Shown: positions 33,702 to 38,513 of the stretch, in pieces | Layout of the letters: every line of letters begins with the position of its first letter | Position numbering within the stretch: position 1 is the first letter of the stretch | Source of the DNA: Nitrospinia bacterium | Lineage (GTDB): Bacteria > Nitrospinota > Nitrospinia > Nitrospinales > JAJDAT01 | NCBI GenBank assembly: GCA_029261715.1 | Contig: JAJDAT010000042.1 | Location: 1-48,644 of the forward strand | Direction of reading: 5' to 3' | Length of the DNA stretch: 48,644 bases | Notes under the pieces: generated by a model | What the model saw: only the letters and a program-made list of their open reading frames with translations | What the model was told of the DNA's origin: nothing | Database searches by the model: none | Made by a program: the position numbers and the translations under genes

Positions 33702-34463
33702 GTGGCTGAAAGTGAAATTATGATTGAACAACGCAAAGAGGGTTATCGTTTTTCTGTTGAGCCGTTTTTATTGGCTGATTTTGCGAACGTTTCTTCTGGG
33801 ATTGAGGTTTTAGATATAGGGACGGGTTCAGGAATTATTCCCATTCTTATCTCCAAAAAAAAGCCTGGTTTAAAAATTACTGCTGTCGAAATACAAAAGT
33901 TGTTAAGCGATCTTGCTTTGGAAAATATTCAATCTGCTAGTTTATCGGCTTTTATTGAGGTGATTTGTGGTGATTATTTAGAAGTTTCACAAAACCTTCA
34001 GACAAGCTCATTTGATATGGTTTTGAGTAATCCTCCATATAGGAAACTAAATAGCGGTCGAGTTAATCCCAATCCAGTTAAAGCGATTGCGCGTCATGAG
34101 ATTAAATTAAATCTCCATAATCTTATTGAAGCTTCTTTTCGGTTGTTAAAACCTAATGGAAGAATTGTTTTATCCTATCCAATGTCTCGGAAGAGCGAAG
34201 TCTTAGAAGTTTTGAGTCGTTCAAAATTAGTCCCAACAAGGTTGAGAGATGTATACGGTTGCCCCGGAGCGATTGCTAAATTTTTTTTAGTTGAAGCTGA
34301 AAAAATAGAAGTCGACTCTTCGCTAGAAGAGGATTCTATATATATTTATAAATCGGACGGATCTTATTCAGAAAATATGGAACAGATTTATGCTTCCTTT
34401 GATCATCCTTTCCGGTCCCACAGGGTCGGGCAAAAGCGCGACAGCTCTGGAGTTGGCCGATAA
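33702..34463 (+). CDS. tRNA1(Val) (adenine-37-N6)-methyltransferase-like (TrmN6/YfiC family)
   Basis: 253 residues. Likely N6-adenine methylation of tRNA or rRNA. Evidence: QRKEGYRFSVEPFLLADF (about 11-28), motif I VLDIGTGSGIIPILISKK (about 37-54), and the amino-methyltransferase NPPY at about 110-113. The GTG start has no clear Shine-Dalgarno. Its last 74 bases overlap the start of miaA in another frame, and the C-terminal 25 residues encoded there (EQIYASFDHPFRSHRVGQKR) look unlike a conserved tail. Both overlapping genes modify tRNA position 37 in the usual families. Confidence 0.88.
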   Translation: MAESEIMIEQRKEGYRFSVEPFLLADFANVSSGIEVLDIGTGSGIIPILISKKKPGLKITAVEIQKLLSDLALENIQSASLSAFIEVICGDYLEVSQNLQTSSFDMVLSNPPYRKLNSGRVNPNPVKAIARHEIKLNLHNLIEASFRLLKPNGRIVLSYPMSRKSEVLEVLSRSKLVPTRLRDVYGCPGAIAKFFLVEAEKIEVDSSLEEDSIYIYKSDGSYSENMEQIYASFDHPFRSHRVGQKRDSSGVGR

Positions 34464-37400
34464 GCTTGGGTCGGAAATAGTTAGCGCCGATTCCATGCAG
34501 GTTTATAAGTATTTTGATATAGGAACGGCCAAACCTAGTAGAGAAATTAGAAGAATAGTTCCACACCATTTAATCGATATCCTCGAACCAGATGAAAAAT
34601 TCAATGCATATGAATTTAAAACTCAAGCTTTGGATTGGGCTCGCAAGATTTCTGGCCGAGGTAAAACCCCATTAATCGTTGGCGGTACAGGTTTATATCT
34701 TAAAACTCTAATGTTGGGATACGACTGTGCTGTAATGGTTTCTCCCGAAGTTAATTCGCAAGTTAAGTCCGAAATCGATAAATGGGGTACGTGTCGAATT
34801 CATGAAGAATTAGAAGCGGTTGATCCAGAATCCGCAGAAAAAATTTCCTGTAATGACTCGTTAAGAATTCAGAGAGCGCTAGCTATATACCGCCAAACGG
34901 GAACCCCATTATCCCAATTACATCGTGAAGGAACGCCATTAGAAGAAGAATTTGACGTAAAGTTTTTCTTATTACAATGGGATCGCGAATCTCTTTATAA
35001 AAATGTTGAAAATAGGATCGACTCAATGATTCTAGAAGGATGGGTCGACGAGGTAAAAGGATTATTAAAGCGTAAAATTAATCAGAATTCGAGACCTTTT
35101 CAGAGTATTGGATACCCGCAAATAAGTCGTTTTTTAAATGACGAAATACCATTGGCTCAAGCGGTAAAAGAAATCAAACAAGAAACCCGTCGTTATGTCA
35201 AAAGGCAAACGACATGGTTCAAAAAGATGCCAAATCATATACCCATTCCCGTTTCCCCTAAGGATGATCCCGCCATGATAAAAAATAAGATTTTTGCGAA
35301 AGCCCCAGGGCTAATTTCTTTCTTAATTGTTCTGTTTTTTTCTTTCTTGAATCCAAATTTTGCTGTATCGGAAGTTTCTAAAATCGACCAAGCGGCTATT
35401 CTAAAGGATGGAGGAGACCTTTCTAGCGCAAATCAAGTTTTATCCGAATATTTGGGAACTGACCTTTCTACAGATGTGAAAGATCCCGCATTGTTATTGT
35501 CGGGAATGGTTTTGAATCAATTGGGAAATCATGCTGAAGCTGTAAGTCGTTTGAAGGAATCTCTAAATATTTCTTCGCCCGTTGAAGGTTATAAACGATA
35601 TGAGTTAGCGGAAGCTTTATTTCATTTGAATCAATTTGAATTAGCGTTGGAACAAATTGAAAAATGTTTAGAAGATAAGCTTGTTCTAGGTGTTTTCCCT
35701 GACGCGGTTTTATTGAAAGCTAACGTTTTAGAAAAACTGAAGAAGAACTCCGAGGCAATTTTATTTTTAAACAAAGCGATAAAAAAAATATCGTCAAATA
35801 AAGCGTTTTTAGCGTCGAGCTATATTCCTCAACTTTTGTATAAACAAGGAAGTTTGTTGGAAGCGCACAGTAAATTTTTTAAAGCTTTTAATATTTATAA
35901 AAGGATTTATATTAAATATCCTTTGAGCGAAGAAGCCGTTTTATCATTTAACCGAATGGAAGAAATAAAAAATTTACCCAAAGTTTCAGTTCAAGATATC
36001 CAAAGCTCAGGCCGGATGATGCGTGTAAAGGTACTATCAAGTCGCGCTCAATTTGAAAAAGTAGTTAATGAAATTGAAGCTAATCGCGGAAGCTTAAATT
36101 CCATTGAGAGTTTTATCTATTTGGCTAACGCTTATCGCAAACAAAGTAAAAGAGATGAGGCCGCGAAAATTTTTCGGGAAATTTTGGTCAAATTTCCTAA
36201 TCGATCTAAAACCCAGAAAGTGTTATTTGAATCTGCCAGAAATCTTTGGAATTTAGATCAAAGTGTAGAAGCTGCGAAAATTTTTCGCAAAGCGATTAGC
36301 AAGAACTCTAATAATAGTTTGGGAATGCGCGCGCGTTATTTTTTAGGAAGGGTGTTTGAAGGCGATGGAAAAATAGAAGAGGCTCTCAATGAATATCGAG
36401 AATTAGAGAAGCGACGCGGACACTTTGCGGAAGAAGGAGCTTGGAGAATTGGTTGGTTGAGCTACACCTCTGGAAAATTTATGGAAGCTGAAAAAAACTT
36501 TCAATCCAATATTAATCGCTTTCAAAAGGGAGATTTGTTAGAAGCAAATATTTTTTGGAAAGCTAAGAGTTTAGAGAAAATGGGTAATTCTCTTAAGGCT
36601 AATCAAGCCTATAAAGAAGTGTCTTCCAAGTTTCCTTTTACTTATTACGGAACAATCGCTTCTAATAAATTAGCTAAAACAAGTTTGTCGAGTTCCCCAA
36701 AACAAATTGAGGCTGGCTCAATTCAACCAATTAGCCATAATCCCGATTTAAATCGAAAAGTTCTTAAAGAACCAAAACTTGGAAAAAACTCTAGGGAAAG
36801 ATTAAAAAGAGTCAGGATATTTTTAAATTTGAGACTAAACGATAGCGCTGTTTTTGAGATAAGGCATATTGAGAGAAAAATCCGAAAGACATTTTCAGGC
36901 ACTTTATGGATAGCTGATTTATATGGTCGAGCTGGCGCTTATAAAGAATCTCAAAGGCTATTGGAGCTTTTCGCTAAATTTAAAACAAAAATGCGAGAAA
37001 AAGAGTTACCCCAAATTTTTTGGAAACGTTATTTCCCTTTGGCCTTTAAGCAAGATATTTACTCCCAGGCCAAAGCTTTTAATGTAGATCCATTTATGGC
37101 AACGAGCGTTATTAGGCAGGAAAGTATGTTCGATCATAATTCTATGTCAGTTGTTGGCGCTAGAGGCTTGATGCAGATAATGCCGCATACAGGAGAAAGG
37201 TTTTATCAATTAGAAAAAGATAAGCCGGAGTTTCAACCTAACTTATTGTTTGATCCAACAATAAATATTCGCATTGGAACTAAATATTTAAAGGAACTTA
37301 ATTCCCAATATAATGGAAATTGGGTTAAAATTCTAAGCTGCTATAACGCAGGGCCCCAAGCGGTTGCGAACTGGGAGGCTCGGTTTCCAGAAATTAAAGA

Positions 37401-37515
37401 TCCAGATGAGTTTGTCGAACGAATTCCGTTTCCAGAAACCAGGAATTTTGTGAAACGAGTGCTGAGAAACCGGGGTGTTTATCGAGCTCTTTATCAAGAA
37501 AACTTAGCAACTTAA
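34390..37515 (+). CDS. miaA: MiaA tRNA dimethylallyltransferase fused in frame to a TPR/lytic transglycosylase
   Basis: 1041-codon open frame joining two unrelated enzymes. Residues 1 to about 290 are MiaA, which prenylates A37 of tRNA: LSGPTGSGKSATALELADKL (P-loop 9-16), SADSMQVYKYFDIGTAKP, IVGGTGLYLKTLM and RQTTWFKK at the usual end. Residue 296 is a Met starting a signal-peptide-like segment (KNKIFAKAPGLISFLIVLFF); from there the protein is an Slt70-like transglycosylase. A cytoplasmic tRNA enzyme with an internal export signal makes little sense, so two separate genes are more likely. An extra base before 35259 would create a TAA stop there, 13 bases ahead of the second start. Confidence 0.85.
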   Translation: MLPLIILSGPTGSGKSATALELADKLGSEIVSADSMQVYKYFDIGTAKPSREIRRIVPHHLIDILEPDEKFNAYEFKTQALDWARKISGRGKTPLIVGGTGLYLKTLMLGYDCAVMVSPEVNSQVKSEIDKWGTCRIHEELEAVDPESAEKISCNDSLRIQRALAIYRQTGTPLSQLHREGTPLEEEFDVKFFLLQWDRESLYKNVENRIDSMILEGWVDEVKGLLKRKINQNSRPFQSIGYPQISRFLNDEIPLAQAVKEIKQETRRYVKRQTTWFKKMPNHIPIPVSPKDDPAMIKNKIFAKAPGLISFLIVLFFSFLNPNFAVSEVSKIDQAAILKDGGDLSSANQVLSEYLGTDLSTDVKDPALLLSGMVLNQLGNHAEAVSRLKESLNISSPVEGYKRYELAEALFHLNQFELALEQIEKCLEDKLVLGVFPDAVLLKANVLEKLKKNSEAILFLNKAIKKISSNKAFLASSYIPQLLYKQGSLLEAHSKFFKAFNIYKRIYIKYPLSEEAVLSFNRMEEIKNLPKVSVQDIQSSGRMMRVKVLSSRAQFEKVVNEIEANRGSLNSIESFIYLANAYRKQSKRDEAAKIFREILVKFPNRSKTQKVLFESARNLWNLDQSVEAAKIFRKAISKNSNNSLGMRARYFLGRVFEGDGKIEEALNEYRELEKRRGHFAEEGAWRIGWLSYTSGKFMEAEKNFQSNINRFQKGDLLEANIFWKAKSLEKMGNSLKANQAYKEVSSKFPFTYYGTIASNKLAKTSLSSSPKQIEAGSIQPISHNPDLNRKVLKEPKLGKNSRERLKRVRIFLNLRLNDSAVFEIRHIERKIRKTFSGTLWIADLYGRAGAYKESQRLLELFAKFKTKMREKELPQIFWKRYFPLAFKQDIYSQAKAFNVDPFMATSVIRQESMFDHNSMSVVGARGLMQIMPHTGERFYQLEKDKPEFQPNLLFDPTINIRIGTKYLKELNSQYNGNWVKILSCYNAGPQAVANWEARFPEIKDPDEFVERIPFPETRNFVKRVLRNRGVYRALYQENLAT
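35275..37515 (+). CDS. Soluble lytic murein transglycosylase (Slt70-like), from internal ATG
   Basis: Likely independent product of the 3' part of the fused frame, 746 residues. Signal peptide about 1-31 (GLISFLIVLFFSFLNPNFAVS). About 40-500 are TPR-like helical repeats (LNQLGNHAEAVSRLKESL, RSKTQKVLFESARNLWNLDQ). The C-terminal SLT domain has VIRQESMFDHNSMSVVGARG with the catalytic Glu (about 620), GLMQIMPHTG, IRIGTKYLKELN and SCYNAGPQAVANW. It would cleave peptidoglycan glycan strands in the periplasm. AAGGA at 35260-35264 is ten bases before the ATG. The mode of translation is inferred. Confidence 0.7.
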   Translation: MIKNKIFAKAPGLISFLIVLFFSFLNPNFAVSEVSKIDQAAILKDGGDLSSANQVLSEYLGTDLSTDVKDPALLLSGMVLNQLGNHAEAVSRLKESLNISSPVEGYKRYELAEALFHLNQFELALEQIEKCLEDKLVLGVFPDAVLLKANVLEKLKKNSEAILFLNKAIKKISSNKAFLASSYIPQLLYKQGSLLEAHSKFFKAFNIYKRIYIKYPLSEEAVLSFNRMEEIKNLPKVSVQDIQSSGRMMRVKVLSSRAQFEKVVNEIEANRGSLNSIESFIYLANAYRKQSKRDEAAKIFREILVKFPNRSKTQKVLFESARNLWNLDQSVEAAKIFRKAISKNSNNSLGMRARYFLGRVFEGDGKIEEALNEYRELEKRRGHFAEEGAWRIGWLSYTSGKFMEAEKNFQSNINRFQKGDLLEANIFWKAKSLEKMGNSLKANQAYKEVSSKFPFTYYGTIASNKLAKTSLSSSPKQIEAGSIQPISHNPDLNRKVLKEPKLGKNSRERLKRVRIFLNLRLNDSAVFEIRHIERKIRKTFSGTLWIADLYGRAGAYKESQRLLELFAKFKTKMREKELPQIFWKRYFPLAFKQDIYSQAKAFNVDPFMATSVIRQESMFDHNSMSVVGARGLMQIMPHTGERFYQLEKDKPEFQPNLLFDPTINIRIGTKYLKELNSQYNGNWVKILSCYNAGPQAVANWEARFPEIKDPDEFVERIPFPETRNFVKRVLRNRGVYRALYQENLAT

Positions 37516-37626
37516 AGGTCTGCTTTCATACTAAACTTCATTTTCACTTTTGGGTCATAGCCTAAAAAAGTTATCGTTGAATTTTTAGTGAATCTTATTT
37601 TTATCTAGAACGCGTCGGAGGAATTG

Positions 37627-38217
37627 ATGAGTCAAGGCGTATCTGCAGAGGATGCAGAAGATTGGGTGGATAAATATTCAACCCAGATGTATAGGTTTGC
37701 CTTAACAAGGGTAAAAGATCAAGATATTGCAGAAGAAGTTGTCCAAGAAACATTTTTAGCGGCCTGGAAATCTAAAAGCTCTTTTTCTGGTAGATCTTCG
37801 GAAAAAAGTTGGTTGTTCGGAATTCTAAAACACAAAATATTGGATCATTTTCGCCAATTGAAAAAAAGAGGCGAAATTGAGTTTGGAGACCCAGGAGAAT
37901 GGGAAACGGCCGAAAATCTTTTTCAGTCCAATGGTTTATGGAAAACACCTCCTTCAAGTTGGGGGATTAATCCAGAGCAAGCTGCCCAAAACTTGCAATT
38001 ATTAGAAGCTTTAAACAAATGCGTCGAAAGTCTTTCTGATCGATTTAAGAGCCTTTTTTTATTGAAAGAAATGGACGGATTAACCGCAGATGAGATTTGC
38101 GATCAATTAGATATAAAGCCTGCAAATTTATGGGTGATGATGCATCGCATTAGAAATCGTCTAAAAACTTGTTTGGAATCAAATTTTGAATTTTCGCAAG
38201 GCGAGTTAAGTAAATGA
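37627..38217 (+). CDS. ECF-type RNA polymerase sigma factor (TIGR02943-like)
   Basis: 196 residues. Sigma region 2 (about 12-80): YRFALTRVKDQDIAEEVVQETFLAAW and SWLFGILKHKILDHFR. A spacer with NGLWKTPPSSWGINPEQA (about 104-121) is typical of one ECF subfamily I know as TIGR02943. Region 4 (about 125-185): LSDRFKSLFLLKEMDGLTADEICDQL and KPANLWVMMHRIRNRLKTCLE. GGAGG lies five bases before the ATG at 37627, which I prefer to the TTG at 37624. The stop overlaps the next start (ATGA), coupling it to the anti-sigma factor. Confidence 0.93.
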   Translation: MSQGVSAEDAEDWVDKYSTQMYRFALTRVKDQDIAEEVVQETFLAAWKSKSSFSGRSSEKSWLFGILKHKILDHFRQLKKRGEIEFGDPGEWETAENLFQSNGLWKTPPSSWGINPEQAAQNLQLLEALNKCVESLSDRFKSLFLLKEMDGLTADEICDQLDIKPANLWVMMHRIRNRLKTCLESNFEFSQGELSK

Positions 38218-38513
38218 AGTCATTATTTATGAGGGGGATGTTATTTATAGAGTCAAAACTTAAAATGACTTGTCGAGACGTTTACCCATATATGTCCGAA
38301 ATGTTGGATCACGAAATTCCCTTTATTCCTCGTATGAGGGTTAAAATGCATCTGGCTTTATGTCATGTTTGCACTTTTTACCAGCAACAATTAGCGATGA
38401 TAAAAAAACTTTCTGAGAATATTGGTTTATCGCAAGAGGATTCTAGGGAAGGGCCAGAATTTAGCGACGAAAAAAAACTCAAAATAAAAGAAGCTCTTAA
38501 AAAGGAAAAATAA
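38214..38513 (+). CDS. Zinc-finger anti-sigma factor
   Basis: 99 residues, no membrane segment. MTCRDVYPYMSEMLDHEI followed by HLALCHVCTFYQQQL gives Cys, His, and H-xxx-C-xx-C, the arrangement of zf-HC2 anti-sigma domains that hold ECF sigma factors. Its start overlaps the sigma gene stop by four bases, the usual sigma/anti-sigma arrangement. Since it lacks a transmembrane helix, release of the sigma factor may respond to a cytoplasmic signal such as thiol oxidation of the zinc site (inference). An internal Met at residue 18 precedes TCRDV and is an alternative start. Confidence 0.85.
   Translation: MKSLFMRGMLFIESKLKMTCRDVYPYMSEMLDHEIPFIPRMRVKMHLALCHVCTFYQQQLAMIKKLSENIGLSQEDSREGPEFSDEKKLKIKEALKKEK

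Follow-up and report, generated by a model that had tools for sequence, protein, structure and literature searches.

The window analysed here is the whole of contig JAJDAT010000042.1 (positions 1 to 48,644), a stretch of 48,644 nucleotides from a Nitrospinia bacterium whose assembly, GCA_029261715.1, comprises 5.3 Mb in 52 contigs. As originally predicted, one open frame in it holds miaA, a segment resembling a signal peptide, and a transglycosylase of the Slt type. The features of the locus are as follows.

33702..34463, + strand: TrmN-like methyltransferase gene, upstream, overlapping the start of miaA by 74 bases
34390..37515, + strand: MiaA-TPR-Slt fusion ORF, 1041 aa, with an ATG start and without an internal stop
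34390..35301, + strand: MiaA (tRNA dimethylallyltransferase) domain, residues 1-304 (TIGR00174, PF01715), including the C-terminal helix at about 293-304
34414..34437, + strand: MiaA P-loop GPTGSGKS, with G9, T11, K15 and S16 invariant
35311..35349, + strand: hydrophobic core of the putative internal signal sequence, residues 308-320, LISFLIVLFFSFL
35362..35370, + strand: predicted signal peptidase I site Ala325-Val326-Ser327, with the cut before Glu328
35371..37512, + strand: predicted mature periplasmic TPR-Slt protein, residues 328-1041, about 80 kDa (Pfam TPR, SLT)
37066..37386, + strand: SLT catalytic domain, residues 893-999 (PF01464, 98.8 bits)
37120-37122, + strand: predicted catalytic Glu911 (RQES), with E911 and S912 invariant

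The TrmN-like gene is likewise found upstream at L032, L120, L123, L125 and L128, which include fused and several split genomes, and its overlap with miaA recurs in L032 and L120. Downstream of the fusion, an ORF at 37624-38513 resembles an ECF-type sigma factor when its sequence is read by eye; a small ORF after it, with a 4-base overlap, may by the same reading be an anti-sigma factor.

The MiaA portion matches TIGR00174 as a full-length equivalog, scoring 286.7 bits over residues 4-281 (cut-off 148.65), and an IPPT match covers residues 37-279 of the fusion. Its P-loop and substrate motifs are intact, D34, S35 and Q37 being invariant in 13 sequences together with the four P-loop residues listed above. 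The MiaA structures in the PDB align to about residue 303 of the fusion (profile position 306-307). The domain therefore extends beyond residue 290, where it had been thought to end, and Met296 lies inside its last helix. Between the MiaA and SLT domains there are TPR repeats with Pfam matches. The SLT domain is a lytic transglycosylase domain with its predicted catalytic Glu in place, and the Slt70 structures 1qsa and 1sly match profile positions 882-1040. Scores against full-length Slt families fall below the cut-offs, at 110 versus 536 bits for the Slt70 equivalog PRK11619 (residues 880-1036 only) and 159 versus 234 bits for NF047373. The Slt part has neither a conserved start codon nor an N-terminal signal peptide of its own. 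The fused MiaA is the only copy in the genome, which also encodes MiaB, the enzyme that uses the product of MiaA. From these domains and motifs, both halves are predicted to be active. Another Slt-like protein, a paralogue of about 814 aa (30% identity), was noticed at G000:C16:5889-7160, with similar proteins in many relatives.

A first search, covering 40 related genomes, gave matches over the full length and in a single frame, and a profile search was made of all 77 genomes of the class, which represent the entire phylum (Nitrospinota) in the genome set. The uninterrupted fusion is present in every genome of the order Nitrospinales whose contigs include the junction, amounting to 59 loci in 58 of 58 genomes. 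Since the same frame is found in all 58, it is not open by chance. The fused relatives, whose identity to the window is about 38%, were assembled separately, some of them as single contigs; in L032 the match to the fused-alignment query covers residues 1-1035. MiaA was identified in 59 of the 64 genomes of the order, and in these it either belongs to the fused frame or is truncated, by the end of a contig or by a break within MiaA, with no free-standing MiaA seen in the 64. It is clear that the miaA-slt fusion is old, order-wide and genuine, and not a sequencing error. No published description of a MiaA-Slt fusion was found in the literature on Nitrospina and the Nitrospinales. One genome, G045, has two complete fused copies (L138 and L139) on different contigs, and 5% contamination is listed for it.

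The last helix of MiaA has the consensus DTPxxLxDKILSLLP and is followed by a segment that is hydrophobic in all of the relatives, with a mean Kyte-Doolittle value of 2.54 for the best 13 residues. When sites were counted anywhere after the core, 58 of 60 sequences had one, against 50 in shuffles, and A-X-A was found in 25 against 22.6. These counts are only modestly above the shuffles, and a test in an anchored register was therefore needed. In register 19-23, the small-X-small pattern [AVSTGIL]-X-[AGS] is present in all 58 anchored sequences, compared with 29.2 (sd 3.7) in shuffles, while controls in which the register was slid gave 41, 15 and 18 of 58. Ala is at position -1 of the site in 49 of the 58, against 17.3 (sd 3.3) in shuffles. 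The sequences are related and not independent, so these figures are softer than they look. The site in the window, A-V-S, is weaker than A-X-A. Lys and Arg are equally frequent on either side of the hydrophobic segment (means of 2.60 and 2.52), and the positive-inside rule is therefore of no help here either way. An AlphaFold model made from a two-row alignment had a mean pLDDT of 50, too poor for use.

It is probable that the fusion is made as one polypeptide with MiaA in the cytoplasm and the Slt part exported through an internal signal peptide and freed by signal peptidase I, an enzyme encoded in the genome. The fusion would be translated as one chain, and MiaA would fold in the cytoplasm. 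Its C-terminal helix would serve as the n-region, running straight into a hydrophobic internal Sec signal sequence that would take the TPR-Slt part through the inner membrane, giving an N-in, C-out topology. A cut by signal peptidase I after the conserved small-X-small site would then release the transglycosylase to the periplasm, and MiaA would remain anchored in the membrane at its C-terminus. The topology, the cleavage and the anchoring of MiaA are all proposed here on the strength of the sequences. It had been objected that a functional fusion would have to place its two enzymes on opposite sides of the membrane. This is no obstacle, as an N-in/C-out protein with a single internal signal sequence does just that.

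The same fusion and the same hydrophobic segment would also fit a protein of 118 kDa that is never cut, a bitopic chain whose MiaA is cytoplasmic and whose Slt stays tethered to the inner membrane on its outer side. Uncleaved enzymes of N-in/C-out topology exist, PknB being an example. However, a small-X-small site held at a constant distance from the hydrophobic segment in 58 of 58 sequences, far above the shuffles, is not expected of a plain anchor, and the uncut protein is considered unlikely.

A further alternative is that there are two products, with Slt initiated separately before the signal peptide, whether or not the full-length chain is also made. The sequence of the window invites this reading, as TAAGGA (35259-35264) is found 10 bases before the ATG of Met296 (35275-35277), both exactly where they had been reported. 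In one other genome, G003, AAGGA precedes a GTG one codon later, and these two are the only loci in which a start codon lying well before the core has a Shine-Dalgarno match of at least 5 bases. A TTG with AGGTG in G046 is at the first residue of the hydrophobic core. Against this, the Met296 column is ATG in just one of the 59 loci, the window itself, and in none of the 58 others. In many loci the stretch from the MiaA motif to the hydrophobic segment contains no ATG, GTG or TTG. Nor is synonymous change reduced at the junction, where pS is 0.35-0.385, compared with 0.32-0.40 elsewhere in the gene, in 16 close pairs; these pairs give no sign of an overlapping DNA signal. A start that is not kept, together with undiminished synonymous change, indicates that internal initiation, as a mechanism, is not conserved. 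The junction dN/dS of 0.21-0.225 (16 independent close pairs) is like that of the rest of the gene, and thus the junction has been kept as protein. Together, the junction data support translation as a single polypeptide. Separate initiation of Slt as the general arrangement is therefore improbable, although an internal start could give a minor, local product in the genome of the window. Three readings had originally been left open, namely a recent one-base loss, a sequencing error and a real fusion with internal initiation. Of the third, the fusion stands throughout the order, whereas the proposed start is set within the last helix of MiaA and initiation from it is not supported.

That a recent one-base loss or a sequencing error at 35252-35258 has united two normal genes can be dismissed: the T3C4 run there and the TAA at 35259-35261 in another frame are exactly as described, and an added base would yield that stop, but the comparison of the locus in relatives that had been proposed as the check on an error found the fusion conserved, in the same frame in separately assembled genomes throughout the order, without a single split copy there and with no T3C4 run shared by the relatives at the site. 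A conserved slippery run at this position was also considered and rejected, the bases upstream of the Met296 column having none in common.

Elsewhere in the class, families f5-f9 have miaA and slt as two genes. The pair is adjacent in f7, f8 and f9, on the same strand and with miaA first; in f7 several hundred bases separate the two. In G070, the ATG of slt overlaps the stop codon of miaA and the Slt encoded there starts with an ordinary signal peptide. A maximum-likelihood tree built on the MiaA domain groups the fused genes in one clade, and a single change separates fused from split (support 100/98), so the fusion arose once. It is most simply seen as the joining of a miaA-slt pair that were already neighbours. 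The stop codon of miaA would have been lost from such a pair in an ancestor of the Nitrospinales, and the resulting fusion retained since. Split MiaA proteins of the class (L121-L134) carry the Trp of the tail motif W-[IV]; the fused loci have lost this Trp. Outside the phylum, none of 78 loci has an extended MiaA, all of them ending no more than 63 residues after the start of the KRQxxW motif. A match from the Aminicenantes (L036) that was considered as a similar fusion proved to be a normal MiaA of 310 aa with unrelated neighbours.

The split pair in the sister families and the fusion in the Nitrospinales give a before-and-after view of neighbouring genes that may have become a membrane-spanning polyprotein. 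This would be a clear bacterial case of a housekeeping cytoplasmic RNA enzyme whose sole copy is permanently attached to an exported one. It is also relevant to the question of how a signal peptide behind a folded domain of 300 residues is handled by Sec and signal peptidase. The fusion might be a functional coupling and not a frozen accident, with MiaA and the transglycosylase made one-to-one and MiaA held permanently at the inner membrane, but this is doubtful. If it were true, modification of tRNA A37 would take place at the membrane and its amount would be tied to wall turnover. There is also a caution for annotators, in that frames such as this are not to be 'corrected'. Cultured strains of Nitrospina should allow the fusion to be tested directly.

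The MiaA part agrees with other MiaA (TIGR00174) in having the full domain with its C-terminal helix and an invariant P-loop and DSxQV motif; it differs in continuing into an internal signal sequence and in the loss of the tail Trp. Similarly, the Slt part resembles Slt70 (PF01464; 1qsa, 1sly) in that a long helical-repeat region leads to a C-terminal SLT domain bearing the RQES and YNAGP motifs, and differs in being without a conserved start or signal peptide of its own and in falling under the full-length NCBIfam cut-offs. As for mechanism, a conserved frame for two proteins with a signal-like segment between them, and a predicted signal peptidase I site in register in 58 of 58, are what a secretory polyprotein would be expected to have. 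The fusion is most likely of this already known kind, cut at an internal signal peptide. The fbcH gene of Bradyrhizobium japonicum encodes a precursor of cytochromes b and c1 that is cut at an internal signal peptide. There too, one frame holds two proteins, the second of which is exported by an internal signal peptide and freed by processing. The parts of the fbcH product, however, are members of a single complex, the first of them being a membrane protein, whereas the first part of the fusion is an unrelated, soluble, cytoplasmic tRNA enzyme. The staphylococcal LtaS is an experimentally tested case, in which the signal peptidase SpsB cuts between Ala217 and Ser218, after the membrane part, and so frees the outer enzyme domain (PMC10865820). 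The cut predicted here would likewise follow a membrane segment deep in the chain and free an outer enzyme domain, but the N-terminal portion of LtaS is a polytopic membrane domain that belongs to the enzyme itself.
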